In this document: piece by piece, positions 17,727 to 36,859 of the stretch
Position numbering within the stretch: position 1 is the first letter of the stretch
How the letters are laid out: each line of letters begins with the position of its first letter
Source: Actinomycetes bacterium
GTDB taxonomy: Bacteria; Actinomycetota; Acidimicrobiia; Acidimicrobiales; Palsa-688
Length of the DNA stretch: 64,000 bases
Direction: 5' to 3'
Assembly: GCA_021838445.1 (NCBI GenBank)
Contig: JAKCDU010000003.1
Location: forward strand, 1 to 64,000
The notes under the pieces: model-generated
The model's database searches: none
Told to the model about the DNA's origin: nothing
The model's input: the letters and a program-made list of their open reading frames with translations, nothing else
Translations under genes and position numbers: made by a program

Positions 17727-17779
17727 TTCCAACCGGGGGAGGATGACGGATCAGCGGTGGCCGCCGTAGCTTGGACGGC

Positions 17780-18874
17780 GTGCCGAGCGACGAGGAGTTC
17801 CGGAAGGTCGCCGAGGATGTCCGGGCCCTGGCCCGGTCCTTGGCCCGGGACCTGAAGGACGCGGCGCGGGCCGCCCACCAGGACGGGCGGCCAACGGCCG
17901 AGGCCTTTCGCGACGGGCTGCGCGACGCGGCCCGGGAGGCTCGTCAGGAGCTCCGCAGGGGCGTAGGCGGCTACCGTCCCGGTTTCGGCCACCACCGAGG
18001 CCCCACCCCCTGGCGCGGCCGGGGCCGGTATCGGGGCTGGGAGGCCTATCGCGGCTGGGGCCCGCCTCCCAGCTGGGGTCCTCCCGGTGGCTCCGGGCCG
18101 GGCGGCGGTCCGCCTGGAGGGCCCGGTGGCGACCGGGCCGGGTCGTCATCTACCCACCCACCGGTCGTCGGGCGCCCCGGACCCGGGCCGTGGTGGCCCG
18201 ACGGCGAGCCGTGGCGCCGACGCCCGCCGCGCCGCCGCGACCTCCCCCCCGTCCGCCGCAGGTGGGACGCCACCGTGCTGGTCGGCCTGTTGGTCGTGGG
18301 GTTCGGGCTGGCGTGGCTGCTCACCGCAGCCGGCGTGGTGCACCTCTCCGTCGAGTCGGTGGTGGCCTGCGGGATGATACTGCTCGGTGCCACCATGGTC
18401 GTCGGCGGGCGAACCGACTGGAGCATCAGCCGCCACGCCTGGCCCATCCTTCTCGGCGCCATCATGGTCGTGGTGCTGTTCGCTACCTCGAGCACCTTCG
18501 GGGTCCCAGGTGCTCTGTCCCACATGTCCTTCGGGGACATGACCGCCACCGCCCGGACCGGCTCGACGGTGTACGGAGGCTTCGGGAAGCTCACCGTGGA
18601 CGCCACAGGTGTCGGGCCGGGCGGCACCGTGCACGTCGAGAGCATCGCCGGTCGGACCGACATAGAAGTACCGGACGGGGTGGCGCTGACCGTCGACGCC
18701 AAGGTCCTCGCCGGTCAGGTCTGCATCCACGGCCGTACCTACACGAGCGGGATCGGGGCCTCCACGGGGCCGGTCACTTGGCAGCCGCCGGGCAGCGCGG
18801 TGTCCTCCAGACCGGTCACCGTGGACGTGCACCAGTCACTGGGGCAGGTCCGCATCGGAAGCGAAAGCTGCTGA
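17780..18874 (+). CDS. LiaF-like membrane regulator with Gly/Pro/Arg-rich linker
   Basis: A protein of about 364 residues. It has a charged helical N-terminus (EEFRKVAEDVRALARSLARDL), a long low-complexity segment rich in Gly, Pro, Arg and Trp (about 70-170), three hydrophobic helices (VLVGLLVVGFGLAWLLTAAG, VACGMILLGATMVVGG, AWPILLGAIMVVVLFAT), and a C-terminal beta-rich domain (TVYGGFGKLTVDATG to LGQVRI) like the LiaF/VraT cell-envelope sensor domain. GTG at 17780 is chosen, with TTG at 17771 as an alternative. It is followed after 5 bp by a histidine kinase and then a regulator, so it probably acts as the membrane inhibitor of a LiaFSR-type envelope-stress system. Confidence 0.78.
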   Translation: MPSDEEFRKVAEDVRALARSLARDLKDAARAAHQDGRPTAEAFRDGLRDAAREARQELRRGVGGYRPGFGHHRGPTPWRGRGRYRGWEAYRGWGPPPSWGPPGGSGPGGGPPGGPGGDRAGSSSTHPPVVGRPGPGPWWPDGEPWRRRPPRRRDLPPVRRRWDATVLVGLLVVGFGLAWLLTAAGVVHLSVESVVACGMILLGATMVVGGRTDWSISRHAWPILLGAIMVVVLFATSSTFGVPGALSHMSFGDMTATARTGSTVYGGFGKLTVDATGVGPGGTVHVESIAGRTDIEVPDGVALTVDAKVLAGQVCIHGRTYTSGIGASTGPVTWQPPGSAVSSRPVTVDVHQSLGQVRIGSESC

Positions 18875-18879
18875 TCGAA

Positions 18880-19812
18880 GTGACCGCCGCCCCCGCCATC
18901 GCCGCCCCTGACCGCGGCGAGACCCAGCTTTCCTACCGCTACCGCACGTCACGGGTGGCGTTCGGCATGTTCTTCCTGCTGATGGGTACGGCCTTCCTGC
19001 TCGACAGTCTCGGTGCGTTCCGCGTGACCACTGGGATCTTCTGGCCGCTGTTCGTCATCTCCCTCGGCACCGGGCTCCTGCTGCACCGGGCCCGCCGGCT
19101 GATGGTCGAGGAGGACCGCAGCGCCCAGCTCGCGGTGGCCGAGGAGCGGGTGCGCATCGCCCGCGAGCTGCACGACATCGTGGCCCACGGGGTGTCGCTC
19201 ATGACCATCCAGATCGCCGCCGCCCGTCGGGTCTCGGCCAAGGATCCCGGCTCGGCCACCGAGGCGCTCGAGGCGGCAGAGGAAACCGGCCGCCAGACCC
19301 TCTCGGAGCTCGAGGGCATGCTCACCGCCCTGCGGGGCGCCGATGCCTCCATCGGCGCCGCCGCCCGCAGCGGGTACGGCGCCTCCGCCCCCAGCTCCCG
19401 GGCCCCGCTGCCCCGCCTCGCCGACCTGGAGACCCTCGTGGACACCGTACGCCAGACCGGCCGGGAGGTGAGCTTCAACGTGCTCGGCGACGTGCCCAAC
19501 CTACCGACCAGTGTCGAGACCACCGTCTACCGGCTGGTGCAGGAGGCTCTCACCAACGCCGTCCGCTACGCCGGCGACGCGCCCATCGACGTCCAGGTGA
19601 TCTTCTCCCCGGCCGCAGTGACGGTATTCGTGGACGACCAGGGCCCCGGCACCGGGCCGCCCCGCCAGGGGGCCGGTCCGGGTCACGGCCTGACCGGCAT
19701 GCGGGAACGGCTGGCCGCCATCGGGGGGACGATGGAGGCCGGTCGGCGGGACCCGGGGCCGGGGTGGCGGGTCTACGCCACCATCCCCCTGATCCTCCTC
19801 CACACCGACTGA
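18880..19812 (+). CDS. LiaS/NarL-type sensor histidine kinase
   Basis: A 310-residue kinase starting at GTG 18880. Two transmembrane helices (AFGMFFLLMGTAFLLDSL; GIFWPLFVISLGTGLLL) are joined by a very short loop, an intramembrane-sensing layout. The HisKA_3 motif RIARELHDIVAHGVS carries the phospho-acceptor His. The HATPase has VQEALTNAVRYAG, DDQGPG and GHGLTGMRERL. It lies between the LiaF-like protein and the response regulator. A Gly/Ala/Ser-rich insert separates the dimerisation and ATPase domains. Confidence 0.93.
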   Translation: MTAAPAIAAPDRGETQLSYRYRTSRVAFGMFFLLMGTAFLLDSLGAFRVTTGIFWPLFVISLGTGLLLHRARRLMVEEDRSAQLAVAEERVRIARELHDIVAHGVSLMTIQIAAARRVSAKDPGSATEALEAAEETGRQTLSELEGMLTALRGADASIGAAARSGYGASAPSSRAPLPRLADLETLVDTVRQTGREVSFNVLGDVPNLPTSVETTVYRLVQEALTNAVRYAGDAPIDVQVIFSPAAVTVFVDDQGPGTGPPRQGAGPGHGLTGMRERLAAIGGTMEAGRRDPGPGWRVYATIPLILLHTD

Positions 19813-19907
19813 CCGGCCGAGCCGCGATCCCGGGGATCCCCTTCGCCGCCGCCCATCGGGGCCGACCCACATCCCGCCGGGGCGCGGCGGCTGTCAGACT
19901 CACAGGA

Positions 19908-20570
19908 GTGATACGCCTACTGATCGCCGACGACGAGGCCATGGTCCGCCGGGGTCTGCGCATGGTGCTCGAAGCCGAGGACGATCTGCAGGTCGTGGGC
20001 GAGGCGGCCGACGGGTACGAGGCGGTGGAGGAAGCCCAGCGGCTGCACCCCGACGTGGTCCTGATGGACGTCCGCATGCCCCGCATGGACGGCGTCGAGG
20101 CCTGCCGGAGATTGGTCGCCGACAGCTCCACCAAGGTGGTCGTGCTCACCACCTTCGATCTCGACGAGCATCTCTTCGCGGCGGTGCGAGCCGGTGCGAG
20201 CGGGTTCCTGCTCAAGGCCTCCCGCCCCGAGGACCTCGTGGTCGCCATCCGAGCCGCGGCGGCCGGCAACGCCCTGGTCGAGCCCCGCATGACCAAGCGC
20301 CTGCTCGAGGAGTTCGCCCGGCGGCCGGCCACCCCCGATGCCGACCATCTGTTCGCCGATCTGACCGAACGGGAGCTCGATGTCCTGCTCGAGGTCGCCC
20401 GGGGGGCCAGCAACGCCGAGATCGCCGAGCGGCTCTACATCAGCGAGACCACGGTCAAGACCCACATGAACCACATCCTCACCAAGCTCAACGTGCGGGA
20501 CCGCATCCAGGCCGTCGTTCTCGCTTACGACCACGGGCTGGTCGAGCCCGGTGGCGGCCGCAGCACCTGA
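19908..20570 (+). CDS. LuxR/NarL-family response regulator (LiaR-like)
   Basis: A 220-residue regulator with receiver domain (LLIADDEAMVRRGL, phospho-Asp in [12 protein letters not shown], Thr in VVVLTTFD, Lys in FLLKAS) and a C-terminal LuxR helix-turn-helix (LTERELDVLLEVARGASNAEIAERL, core SNAEIAERLYISETTVKTH). The GTG at 19908 directly follows CACAGGA. It is the cognate regulator of the kinase upstream and probably controls envelope-stress genes, possibly including the small membrane protein that follows. Confidence 0.93.
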   Translation: MIRLLIADDEAMVRRGLRMVLEAEDDLQVVGEAADGYEAVEEAQRLHPDVVLMDVRMPRMDGVEACRRLVADSSTKVVVLTTFDLDEHLFAAVRAGASGFLLKASRPEDLVVAIRAAAAGNALVEPRMTKRLLEEFARRPATPDADHLFADLTERELDVLLEVARGASNAEIAERLYISETTVKTHMNHILTKLNVRDRIQAVVLAYDHGLVEPGGGRST

Positions 20571-20724: not shown

Positions 20725-21003
20725 ATGCACGAGAACCCGTCGGCCCGGTCGTACCAGACATATGAGGAGCATGACCCCTATGGACGCGGTCGGGGCGGCC
20801 GCCGGTCACGTCCTCTGGGGACCCTGCTCACCTGGGTCGTCTTCGCCGTGGCGGCGCTGCTGGCCCTGGCCGCCCTGGGATGGATCCTCGGATTGGTGTT
20901 CCATGTGGCAGCGCTGCTGATCAAAGTTGCGTTGGCTACGGCGGTGATCGCCTTCGTGTGGCGGGCCGTGGCCGGCCGAAGGACCCCGAAAAGCCCGATG
21001 TGA
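20725..21003 (+). CDS. Small two-helix membrane protein
   Basis: A 92-residue protein with a strong Shine-Dalgarno (AAGGAGG about 7 nt before the ATG). The N-terminal 30 residues are polar and Arg/Gly-rich. Two hydrophobic helices follow (LLTWVVFAVAALLALAALGW and LVFHVAALLIKVALATAVIAF), then a basic tail. I do not recognise a family. It lies 154 bp after the response regulator, on the same strand, so it may be a target of that system. Confidence 0.7.
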   Translation: MHENPSARSYQTYEEHDPYGRGRGGRRSRPLGTLLTWVVFAVAALLALAALGWILGLVFHVAALLIKVALATAVIAFVWRAVAGRRTPKSPM

Positions 21004-21006
21004 CCC

Positions 21007-21035
21007 TTGACACCAGAGGTGTCCGGGCGTTGAAT
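21007..21035 (+). promoter_or_regulatory. Sigma-70-type promoter with overlapping palindrome
   Basis: A consensus -35 TTGACA at 21007-21012 is followed after exactly 17 nt by TTGAAT at 21030-21035. A perfect inverted repeat, GACACC (21009-21014) and GGTGTC (21018-21023), overlaps the -35 and spacer, well placed for a repressor. Transcription would start near 21042 and read into the structured region that follows. Confidence 0.65.
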
Positions 21036-21041
21036 GAGGGG

Positions 21042-21340
21042 TGAACGACAGAAGTTCGAAGTCCCTCGGGGACGGAAAGGAGGGCACCGTGGCGACATGG
21101 AGCTCGTCCGAGGAGGACGGTCCACCCCGCTGATGAGGGGTGCCGGCAGCATGGGAAACCCTGCCAGGCGCCCAGCCAGCGATCGTCGGGCGGCTGCACG
21201 CTCGGAATCGGCCGGCCCTATGGCCGGATGACGTTGCGGCGTGATCCGGGACGAGGCGGTCCCAAAAGGTAGAGCCAGGTCGTCCCGACGAAACTCAACC
21301 GGCACAGGAGTGGCTGCGAAGCTGTCCTGTGCCGGTTGCG
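21042..21340 (+). ncRNA. Candidate structured small RNA, unrecognised family
   Basis: This 412-bp interval has no plausible gene. Between a good promoter and a strong terminal hairpin it contains several helices: CACCCC/GGGGTG (21123-21128 with 21137-21142), GGCAG/CTGCC (21145-21149 with 21161-21165), CCGGCC/GGCCGG (21212-21217 with 21222-21227) and CGGGACGA/TCGTCCCG (21247-21254 with 21280-21287). I looked for RNase P, tmRNA, SRP RNA and common riboswitch signatures and saw none. It could instead be a long leader for the gene at 21416, but the terminal hairpin argues for a free RNA of about 300 nt. Confidence 0.5.
21297..21337 (+). terminator. Strong hairpin with GNRA-capped apex
   Basis: A 13-bp perfect stem (21297-21309 with 21325-21337, AACCGGCACAGGA and its complement) encloses an inner GCT/AGC closed by a GCGA tetraloop. 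No U-run follows. It lies 79 bp before the GTG at 21416 and would end the candidate RNA. Confidence 0.65.
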
Positions 21341-21415
21341 CGTCCCCGCCTGGGCCAAGGGCCAAGCGGTACCGCCCGTATGGCTTTGCGCTCCCGGCCA
21401 TGGGACCATGGAAGG

Positions 21416-22105
21416 GTGAGCGAGTTACAGCGGTGGGACCGCGCCGGTCACCTCCCCGAGGAGGCCTCCCTGGACCGGCTTCCCGACCGACGCCGCGATT
21501 CCCGCCTGCCTGCCGTGGACCGCAACCGGGGCCGTGGGCTGGATCTCAGCCCGGCCGAGGTGGTGGCCCGGCGCTCCAACCGCCGCTGGATGCTGTTCAT
21601 GGTGGTGTCATCGGTGGTGATCCTCGTGCTGGCCCTGATCGCCACGGCGGTCTTCGTGAGCAACGAGCCGAGCGGGCCCAAGATCAGCGTCCCTGTCGGC
21701 TACCAGGCCATCAACGACGGTTACTTCAGCTACGCCGTCCCCCGTGCCTGGAAGAACAACCCGTCCAACACCGACCAGGCCGGCGACGTCGACACCTCGG
21801 GACCCACCGGTTTCGCCGGTGAGCACATTGCCTACAGCGCCTCGGCTCCCGTCCTCGGCGCCACTCCGCCCGTCGCCCTCGAGGCCCTCGGAGCCTCCCA
21901 ACCCACGCCTTTCGACCTGACCGGCGGCCGGCCGGTGGCCATAGCCGGGACCAGCGCCGCCTTCGTCTACACGGCGACCCGGCCAGGCGGCTTCCAGGCG
22001 ACGGTCGTCAACGCCTACGACTACAAAGCCGCCGTCGAGCTGTGGCTGATGATCCAGGCGCCACCGTCGGTAACCGGGATCATCGTGTCGTCCCTGCGGG
22101 CCTGA
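21416..22105 (+). CDS. Single-pass membrane protein, unrecognised
   Basis: A 229-residue protein starting at GTG 21416. The N-terminal 60 residues are charged and cytoplasmic, followed by one transmembrane helix (WMLFMVVSSVVILVLALIATAVFV, about 61-83). The outside domain of about 145 residues contains GYQAINDGYFSYAVPRAWKNN (core YFSYAVPRAW). That resembles the start of LpqN/PsbP-like lipoprotein domains, a weak resemblance. It converges with the peptidoglycan hydrolase gene. Confidence 0.65.
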   Translation: MSELQRWDRAGHLPEEASLDRLPDRRRDSRLPAVDRNRGRGLDLSPAEVVARRSNRRWMLFMVVSSVVILVLALIATAVFVSNEPSGPKISVPVGYQAINDGYFSYAVPRAWKNNPSNTDQAGDVDTSGPTGFAGEHIAYSASAPVLGATPPVALEALGASQPTPFDLTGGRPVAIAGTSAAFVYTATRPGGFQATVVNAYDYKAAVELWLMIQAPPSVTGIIVSSLRA

Positions 22106-34842: not shown

Positions 34843-35502
34843 TCAGTCGTGGGGGTCCAGCAACCGCCTGCGAACGGCGTACATGACCGCCTCCATGCGA
34901 CTGTGGAGGTGCAGCTTCTCCAAGATGTTGCGCACGTGGTTCTTGACGGTGTTCTCGGAGATGAACAGCTCCTCGGCCACGTCCTTGTTGCTCATGCCCC
35001 GGGCCACCAGCTTCAGCACCTCCAGCTCCCGGGCGGTGAGGACCGGGGCCGGCAGCTGCTCACGTTCGGCCGCGGCCCGGGCCAGGGCATTGAACTCGCC
35101 CAGCAGCTTGGCTGCCATCGACGGTGAAATCCGGCTTTCGCCCTGCACGGCCGAATGGATGGCCGAGCCCACCTCCTCGACGGATATCTCCTTGAGCAGA
35201 TAGCCGTTGGCCCCGGCCTTGATGGCGTCGAAGAGGTCCTCCTCCTCGTCGGACACGGTCAACATCAAGATTCTCGTCGTGGGCAGCGCGGCGCGTATAC
35301 GCCGGGCCGCCTCGATGCCGTTGAGCCGGGGCATCCGCACGTCCATGAGGACCACGTCGGGGGCCAGCTCCTCGGCCCGCTCGACCGCCTCCTCGCCGTC
35401 CTCGGCGTCGGCCACCACCTCGATGTCGTCCTCGGAAGCGAGGACCGCCTCCAGCCCCCGGCGGAAGACCGCCTGGTCGTCGGCGATCAGGACCCTGATC
35501 AC
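34843..35502 (-). CDS. LuxR/NarL-family response regulator, orphan
   Basis: A 219-residue regulator. The receiver domain has [13 protein letters not shown], phospho-Asp in [21 protein letters not shown] and the Lys in YLLKEI. The LuxR-type HTH is [25 protein letters not shown] (core [20 protein letters not shown]). No kinase gene adjoins it. The GTG at 35502 fits the receiver start. In actinobacteria a regulator of this type often lies near secA and hpf. The structured interval upstream (35527-35761) is a possible leader. Confidence 0.92.
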
Positions 35503-35526
35503 CGAATCACCCGACGACCCGTTCAC

Positions 35527-35761
35527 GGGACCTGAAGCTAGTCGAAAGTGACTAGCGCATCCGGGTCCCTCAGCGGCTGACCTGGTCTTTGACCCCACAC
35601 CCGCCTGGAACGCCCGAGGCCCCGGTGGCCTCATCACGGACCAGGACTTACTTCTAAGCCGCACCATGATCAGCGCCTCGGTACTACCCGAACCGCCTTA
35701 CGTGGGTCGTTTCGCCTGCGACTGGCTTCGACTTTCAACCACAGACCCGCTGAGGGACCCG
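35527..35761 (-). ncRNA. Candidate structured RNA or leader, family unknown
   Basis: This 301-bp gene-free interval is closed by a perfect 15-bp inverted repeat (CGGGTCCCTCAGCGG at 35562-35576, complement at 35747-35761). Inside are CCTGGTC/GACCAGG (35581-35587 with 35639-35645) and GAGGCC/GGCCTC (35616-35621 with 35627-35632). Nearer the regulator gene, GCTAGTC/GACTAGC (35537-35543 with 35550-35556) lies within GGGACC (35527-35532), which can pair with GGTCCC at 35564-35569. That pairing excludes the 15-bp stem, a riboswitch-like choice. Size and neighbourhood (secA, LuxR regulator) allow a raiA-motif RNA, but I cannot confirm it. Confidence 0.5.
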
Positions 35762-35803: not shown

Positions 35804-36859
35804 TCAGGGACCGGCCAGCTGCTGCTTCAGGTCGGACAGGATGGGCACCGGTCCGGGGTCTACCCCACTCTGGACGGCCACCCACAGGGATACGTAGTCC
35901 CCGAAGAGGATGAGGTCGAACAGCTGGGCCAGATCGCCGTCGCCGTCGGCCCGCACCTCAACGATGTCGGCCACCACCTCGCGCATGGTCTCGCCGATCA
36001 GGTCGAACCGCCGGCCCACCTGGGGGTGCTCGCCGTCGTGGCGTAACGCCACGGCGGTGATCACCTGCCGGGTGACGTCGCCGTTCACCCCCCAGCCGCA
36101 GACCTCGTTGTGGCACAGCTCGGGCTGGGTCGCCCAGAAAGCCGGGGCCTTGGCGTTCTCGTTGATCTGGGTCTTCCAGCGCTGCGCCGCCGTCGCCCCT
36201 ACCGCCCCGCCCCCGTGGACGAGGGCGATGGAGCGACCGATGCGTTGAGCCACCCGGGCCGGGGCGCTGGCCTCCGCGGCGGCCTCGATCTCGTCCCGGC
36301 GGCGCTTGAGCTGTTCCACCGCGGCGGAGATCCACGACGATCCGCCCCGGTACAAGCCGAGATGGTCGAGCACGACGAGAGCCGGGACGGACAGGGCCCC
36401 CAGGGCGGCCCGCGGCTGGGGGATGGTCGCGGGAACCGGGAAGATCGGCGCCCCCCAGTGCGAAGCCAGGTCGGCGAGCTGCCCGCCGCTGGTCACGACG
36501 ACGAGCTGGGCACCGGCCGATTCGGCGTCGGTGGCGGCCTGCACCGTCTCTTCGGTGTTGCCCGAGGCCGAGACCGCGAAGACCAGGCTCTCGGGGCCCA
36601 CGAAAGCGGGGCACTCGTAGGACTTCGAGACCACCACCGGGACCGGCACGAGCGGCTCGGCCACCGCGGCGAGCACGTCGCCGCTGATCCCGCTGCCGCC
36701 CATCCCGAGGACCACGATGTTCTGCACCTCGGCCGGCTCGACCTGCGAGACGAGCTCCCGGGCGGCCGCGGCGGCCGTCTCGACCTGTTCGGGGAGCCCC
36801 GCGGTGAGCGCGAACATTCCCACCGTGTCGAGGCGGCCGGTCGACTCCCCGATGGTCAC
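35804..36859 (-). CDS. Bifunctional phosphoglucose/phosphomannose isomerase-type SIS protein
   Basis: A 351-residue double-SIS protein. NIVVLGMGGSGISGDVLAAV (core GMGGSGISGD), SYECPAFVGPESLVFAVSASGNTEET (core SASGNTEET) and the substrate region INENAKAPAFWATQPELCHNEV (core NENAKAPAF, with Glu and His) match the PGI/PMI family that interconverts glucose-6-P or mannose-6-P with fructose-6-P. It precedes a Trm112-like protein and phosphomannomutase in an overlapping series, so mannose-6-P supply for GDP-mannose is its likely job. Confidence 0.88.
   Translation of the reverse strand: MTIGESTGRLDTVGMFALTAGLPEQVETAAAAARELVSQVEPAEVQNIVVLGMGGSGISGDVLAAVAEPLVPVPVVVSKSYECPAFVGPESLVFAVSASGNTEETVQAATDAESAGAQLVVVTSGGQLADLASHWGAPIFPVPATIPQPRAALGALSVPALVVLDHLGLYRGGSSWISAAVEQLKRRRDEIEAAAEASAPARVAQRIGRSIALVHGGGAVGATAAQRWKTQINENAKAPAFWATQPELCHNEVCGWGVNGDVTRQVITAVALRHDGEHPQVGRRFDLIGETMREVVADIVEVRADGDGDLAQLFDLILFGDYVSLWVAVQSGVDPGPVPILSDLKQQLAGP

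Follow-up and report, generated by a model that had tools for sequence, protein, structure and literature searches.

Comparative sequence evidence supports positions 21004-21415 of the window (the whole 64,000-nt stretch of DNA that was analysed) as the site of an RNA gene, about 300 nt long, that had not been described before. Its predicted transcript appears both to fold and to yield a tiny peptide. An earlier note on this DNA had proposed an undescribed structured RNA gene of about 300 nt in a gene-free interval. The structured RNA gene is borne out by its own promoter, a terminal hairpin, covarying structure and the lack of an Rfam match, but the element appears to be coding as well: the interval indeed contains no gene of ordinary size, although a 14-codon open reading frame (ORF) with a strong Shine-Dalgarno (SD) sequence had been overlooked. 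A non-coding label is not supported by the sequences, since the most conserved part of the gene is this micro-ORF, that is, the SD and 14-15 codons, and the nucleotide conservation is in part codon conservation. Taken together, we propose that the element is a stand-alone dual-function RNA of about 300 nt, serving both as the mRNA for a peptide of 14-15 residues and as a structured RNA, with translation coupled to the 3' domain. We favour this reading tentatively, at a little short of an even chance.

The interval, read directly, lies between ORFs for a 92-aa and a 229-aa membrane protein, both on the plus strand, as the earlier note had described (Table 1). Homologues of the 92-aa protein were found 5' of the element at 7 loci, all in clade A, and homologues of the 229-aa protein 3' of the RNA at 12 clade A loci, with other genes at that place elsewhere. 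The LiaFSR-like genes reported nearby are likewise present in the window, where genes for a LiaF-like protein, a histidine kinase and a LuxR-type response regulator follow one another at 17771-20570; this neighbourhood is not constant, and the flanking genes vary by lineage. The near-consensus promoter that had been claimed (TTGACA, 17 nt, TTGAAT) is there too, and transcription is expected to start near 21042. A promoter of the same kind, with a TTGACA-like -35 box and a -10 box 5' of the SD, was detected by comparison with dinucleotide shuffles in 32 of 39 relatives (p<=0.05). A strict promoter scan misses the promoter of the window because its -10 box has no A at position 2, and a few distant members have no clear promoter.

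Comparison of the relatives also argues for the micro-ORF and its frame. The motif [AG]GGAG is kept in all 39 relatives, 5-8 nt 5' of the start codon, and GAAAGGAG is invariant in the 18 rows of alignment A1. The window frame reads GTG GCG ACA TGG AGC TCG TCC GAG GAG GAC GGT CCA CCC CGC TGA; among the 39 relatives the start codon is GTG in 26 and ATG in 13. An in-frame stop occurs at codon 15 or 16 in 38/39, with TGA, TAG and TAA all in use, although only 2.0 percent of the DNA beyond the frame consists of stop trinucleotides. This exchange of stop type at a fixed place is the strongest single argument for the ORF. No internal stop was observed where about 10 would be expected, and column shuffling gave a z of 2.3 for the frame (12 of 2000 shuffles were as good), statistics whose significance is somewhat overstated because the relatives are not independent. 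Conservation of the predicted peptide is low at the N-terminal end and peaks near the C-terminal end at S-[ST]-E-E-x-[GDAT]-P-P, a core followed by the stop one or two codons on; a few distant members have longer frames, of about 13-27 codons. These comparative data point to an ORF under selection, and hence to putative translation, as expected of a dual-function sRNA.

Codon 11 ends in T in nearly all of the 39 relatives, whatever the amino acid (GGT, GAT, GCT or ACT). This T directly precedes CCR-CC and is not explained by GC-rich codon usage. A programmed frameshift from the micro-ORF was considered and rejected, as the +1 and -1 frames are unrelated in length (medians of 39 and 30 codons) and share no product. 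A second ORF around 21229-21273 (MTLRRDPGRGGPKR) was rejected as well, its frame being broken in one relative (L009) and not kept in other clades; the conservation of that region is better explained by a helix.

Table 1. Features of the element and its neighbours, with positions in the window.
Feature	Positions	Strand	Basis or remark
Upstream neighbour, 92-aa membrane protein	20725-21003	+	Outside the element; no Pfam match
Sigma70-type promoter, TTGACA-17-TTGAAT	21007-21035	+	Read directly; -35 box 21007-21012, -10 box 21030-21035
SD of the micro-ORF, AAAGGAGG	21076-21083	+	Conserved in relatives
SD hairpin: SD paired with ORF codons 5-7, loop GCGA (GNRA) at the start codon	21079-21109	+	MFE fold, consensus folds
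Putative micro-ORF, GTG...TGA, 14 codons, VATWSSSEEDGPPR then stop	21089-21133	+	Translation
Stem-loop right after the stop codon	21137-21173	+	MFE fold, stem search in relatives
Internal domain: GGCCGGCC (21210-21217) paired with GGCGGTCC	21210-21267	+	Consensus fold
Terminal hairpin, 14 bp plus inner 4-bp stem, GCGA loop (GNRA)	21296-21338	+	Fold, relatives
Downstream neighbour, 229-aa single-pass membrane protein	21416-22105	+	Outside the element; no Pfam match

The same layout, consisting of a sigma70-type promoter, an SD, an ORF of 14-15 codons, an SD hairpin and a 3' terminal hairpin, was observed in homologues at 39 loci, and most lineages have a further hairpin near the stop. A DNA search gave matches in 22/61 genomes. 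A model built on sequence alone from the 5' 64 nt matched strongly (E below 1e-7) in 22 of the 32 genomes of the same family, spanning 13 of its 16 genera. Its further matches lay in a few other families, giving a patchy distribution over the order Acidimicrobiales; those that were translated by hand have the peptide core in common. When about 85,000 species genomes of bacteria and archaea were scanned with a pattern, 53 matches were obtained. The core [ST]-E-E-x-x-P-P is carried by 29 of them, all of which stop at codon 15 or 16, and none of the remaining 24 stops there. All 29 core-bearing matches appear to belong to Acidimicrobiales; their record titles read Acidimicrobiales, Acidimicrobiaceae, Acidiferrimicrobium or unclassified Actinomycetes, apart from one MAG titled Acidobacteriota. 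This MAG (L085, JAGWSF010000026.1) bears the same element as the window and is probably mislabelled. Among the carriers, Acidiferrimicrobium is a cultivated relative. Outside the order, neither the pattern scans nor the model searches returned a convincing match. The one match of a phylum-wide pattern search beyond the window (G052) has a stop inside the frame and was taken as chance, and the weak model matches (E = 1e-5 to 1e-2) were mostly chance, several having been inspected and rejected.

The internal helices described by the earlier note and the compensatory changes that it named as possible support were both seen: several helices are present, with compensatory changes in those of the relatives, and the fold is far better than that of shuffled sequences (z -4.9). 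For 21030-21345 the folding energy was -164.8 against a mean of -135.8 (sd 6.0) for dinucleotide shuffles (z -4.88, 0/100), and for 21042-21348 the z was -4.93. At the 5' end, the SD and the bases that follow it pair with codons 5-7 (xxC UCx UCC), and the start codon sits at the loop of this hairpin, which is a GNRA loop in many members. The pairs differ by lineage, being GGGC/GCUC in clade A, GAGC/GCUC in clade B, GAGUC/GACUC in clade C and GAGCC/GGCUC in L044, and pairing of the SD with codons of its own sequence is stronger than pairing with swapped ones (permutation z -5.1, or -4.9 with distinct sequences only; 0/5000), comparative evidence for the SD hairpin. In most relatives, though least often in clade B, a stem search recovered a stem that begins 3-8 nt beyond the stop; this stem contains a covarying pair in alignment A4. 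Farther 3', the helix of the internal domain encloses a hairpin CCGGAT...ATCCGG (21224-21249), and its GGCGGTCC strand sits within the conserved GAGGCGGTCCCAAAA (21253-21267). Compensatory changes in this domain were found in the consensus fold of 11 relatives from clade A; a motif like GAGGYGGTCCCAA occurs in clades A and B, and a similar helix in another clade.

The terminal hairpin had also been claimed, as 13 bp with a GNRA-type apex; the apex is as described, and we counted 14 contiguous pairs. Nearly all relatives have it 140-260 nt 3' of the stop, and its 5' arm takes 31 distinct forms in 33 species, all still pairing (arm-swap permutation z -17.4, 0/5000). It is probably a transcription terminator. 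In the window it is followed by a conserved CGCGTC; a U-tract is absent after it save in a low-GC relative (L154), which has a T-rich tail there and keeps the TTGACA box, supporting the promoter and terminator reading. A CGCGTC(C) tail recurs across clades instead of a U-tract, in L003, L008, L012, L095, L111 and others. The 3' domain cannot be confidently aligned between clades. Within clade C, where four helices were counted, 93 percent of cells are paired and 11 pairs have changed on both sides; the covariation score was 0.294, against 0.189 for shuffled alignments (0/500) and 0.057-0.098 for slid ones, a slid control that leans in favour of the structure because the structure was derived from the same alignment. 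Six clade C members (L095, L081, L086, L110, L111 and L088) have a second covarying hairpin about 130-220 nt after the micro-ORF stop, GGCCGU-(G)GAGC..GCUC-ACGGCC, which resembles the SD hairpin (GGAGC...GCUCGU). Two further pairings were discarded: that of the Pro-codon region with the GAGGYGGTCC motif is contradicted by covariation, and a stem closing the 5' and 3' ends (GGGGACG/CGTCCCC) is found in the window and not retained in relatives.

The genes downstream of the element, named here from their translations and not from a family search, differ from clade to clade. Clade A has a same-strand membrane protein (12 loci), clade B a convergent photolyase-like or prolyl-oligopeptidase-like gene, and clade D a same-strand Lon-N-like gene; clade C has long gaps and mostly convergent genes, and the downstream gene is convergent in L044 and L045 as well. 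Because these genes vary, and in several lineages run convergently, the element reads as a stand-alone transcription unit, independent of the gene downstream. Such a unit, bounded by its own promoter and terminator, is a further mark of a dual-function sRNA, found here by comparison of relatives. A constant leader function would be unlikely for the element, since its neighbours differ among lineages.

That the element matches no RNA family was confirmed for Rfam 15 when the search proposed in the earlier note was run: no Rfam 15 family reached its gathering threshold in the interval, and a relaxed search of it gave weak matches only. The best of these, the Guanidine-II riboswitch (RF01068; 24.4 bits against a threshold of 32), is on the minus strand and covers the variable terminal hairpin, the arm sequences of which are not conserved in relatives. 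Rfam searches at the loci of 19 relatives likewise gave no family match to the element, the sole match being a tRNA far away. 6S RNA (RF00013) has no match in the window or in the whole genome, and tmRNA (RF00023) and RNase P (RF00010) are both located elsewhere in the genome, with no match in the interval. Ms1 RNA genes neighbour genes of the HAD-IB hydrolase and oxidoreductase type (PMC9130861), and these conserved neighbours are absent around the element. No description of the RNA was found in a literature search, from which subscription papers were mostly out of reach. Elsewhere in the window, a raiA RNA (RF03072) was identified at 35568-35755 on the minus strand, with a score of 141.7 bits that clears the threshold by a wide margin. 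It shares positions with the start region of an ORF for a NarL-type response regulator (34843-35667, minus) and lies just downstream of a SIS/phosphoglucose-isomerase-like ORF (35804-36859, minus), both named from their translations.

In the mechanism that we propose, the RNA would be transcribed from its own sigma70-type promoter and would end at the terminal hairpin. Initiation would be gated by RNA folding, with the SD and start codon held in a hairpin whose other strand consists of codons 5-7 of the same ORF. A ribosome that has entered would read S-[ST]-E-E-x-[GDAT]-P-P and stop one or two codons on. A pause at the end of the frame, beside the following stem, may be favoured by the Pro-Pro pair, and the SD-like GAGGAGG a few codons 5' of the Pro codons could strengthen it. 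The next stem, starting within a few bases of the stop, would lie at the edge of the terminating ribosome. Through initiation, pausing and release, translation would determine how the 3' domain folds or how stable it is, and this domain may then act in trans, alone or together with the peptide. Our analysis found no target of the RNA, which we count against the dual-function reading, as we do the longer ORFs (18-27 codons) or unclear promoters of a few distant members and the tail that, save in the low-GC relative, has no U-tract. As in nascent-chain pausing peptides, conservation of the micro-ORF peptide is concentrated at the C-terminal end, and we count this in favour of the dual-function reading. 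Ribosomes are known to pause at Pro-Pro motifs, with codon choice modulating the pause (PMC8129111). A more specific version, which we consider rather unlikely, is that the element is a free-standing sensor of translation state, in which a Pro-Pro pause before the stop of a self-gated 14-codon frame would refold the 3' domain. The RNA, once released, would act in trans, perhaps jointly with the peptide, and such a sensor would be an attenuator-like device without a gene to attenuate.

The main rival to the dual-function reading is a plain micropeptide mRNA, for which the peptide of 14-15 aa would be the sole functional product and the 3' part a UTR with a terminator. It fits well with the finding that the ORF and its SD are the most conserved part and that the 3' region diverges strongly between clades; the poor alignability of the 3' domain, which we count against the dual-function reading, would also suit a loosely constrained 3' UTR. 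However, the 3' sequence of about 200 nt varies little in length and has both a conserved GAGGYGGTCCC motif, in clades A and B, and compensatory pairs, all of which exceeds what a terminator needs. We regard this rival as unlikely overall, if a serious contender. The converse explanation, a non-coding RNA with an accidental ORF, gains something from the nucleotide constraints that also act on codons 5-9, namely the SD pairing and the nearly invariant T before the Pro codons. It is nevertheless highly improbable in view of a stop that is fixed in position and changing in identity, the exchange of ATG and GTG starts, the SD spacing and the frame test.

It is also conceivable that the element is a cis-acting leader, in which translation of the ORF would control attenuation of the downstream gene, in the window that of the 229-aa membrane protein. 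In the window and two clades, the gene that follows the hairpin has the same orientation and lies within about 60-150 nt of it, and a uORF, a stem and a terminator form the layout of ribosome-dependent attenuators. Against this stand the convergent downstream genes in clade B, most of clade C, L044 and L045, and the fact that the downstream gene encodes a different protein in each lineage. Moreover, such attenuators have a regulated gene on the same strand and a run of codons for one amino acid, whereas convergent genes and only a Pro-Pro pair are found here. A cis leader is thus possible in some lineages and is rejected as the shared function; as an account of the element it is improbable. 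An RNA that binds RNA polymerase, like Ms1 or 6S, would agree with the similar length, the stand-alone gene and a genome in which no 6S was detected, but the gene neighbours of Ms1 (PMC9130861) are absent, 6S gives no match, the long closing stem typical of 6S is not conserved, and a translated ORF is not known for Ms1. This is the least probable of the explanations considered.

Read as a dual-function RNA, the element adds a new family of RNA genes, one that Rfam 15 lacks, to Acidimicrobiales, an order in which regulatory RNA seems, to our knowledge, to be little studied. Its frame of 14-15 codons is, as far as we know, among the shortest coding frames with comparative support, and falls below the size that standard gene finders can handle. 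Covariation of the SD with codons of its own ORF offers a concrete, testable case of a gene gating its own translation. If the RNA does act in trans according to translation of its ORF, ribosome-based sensing would here be separated from a cis-regulated operon.

Several known systems resemble the proposed RNA in part. An sRNA bearing a 14-codon ORF is known from Sinorhizobium meliloti, in which both the RNA, rnTrpL, and the 14-aa peptide, peTrpL, act in trans (PMC7298713); the likeness considered here is one of layout. rnTrpL is made by attenuation before trpE(G), is leaderless and has Trp codons, whereas the RNA described here has an SD, lacks a run of codons for any one amino acid and is not followed by a constant operon. 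Translation-arrest peptides and Pro-Pro motifs (PMC8129111, PMC10987492) share with it a short frame, conserved C-terminal residues and Pro-Pro before the stop, but the known regulatory arrest peptides sit 5' of the regulated gene, which the present frame does not consistently do, and pausing is in our case predicted. Ms1 of Actinobacteria (PMC9130861) is likewise a stand-alone RNA of about 230-300 nt, but the present RNA differs in its gene neighbours, in its putative translated ORF and in that a 6S-like closing stem is not conserved. In combining a small ORF with a structured part in a stand-alone sRNA, the element is similar to the dual-function RNA VcdRP (PMC8672173) and to other sRNAs with coding ORFs (PMC5521070); the class of VcdRP has a base-pairing or structured part, and compared with VcdP (29 aa) the peptide predicted here is half as long and comes from a different phylum.
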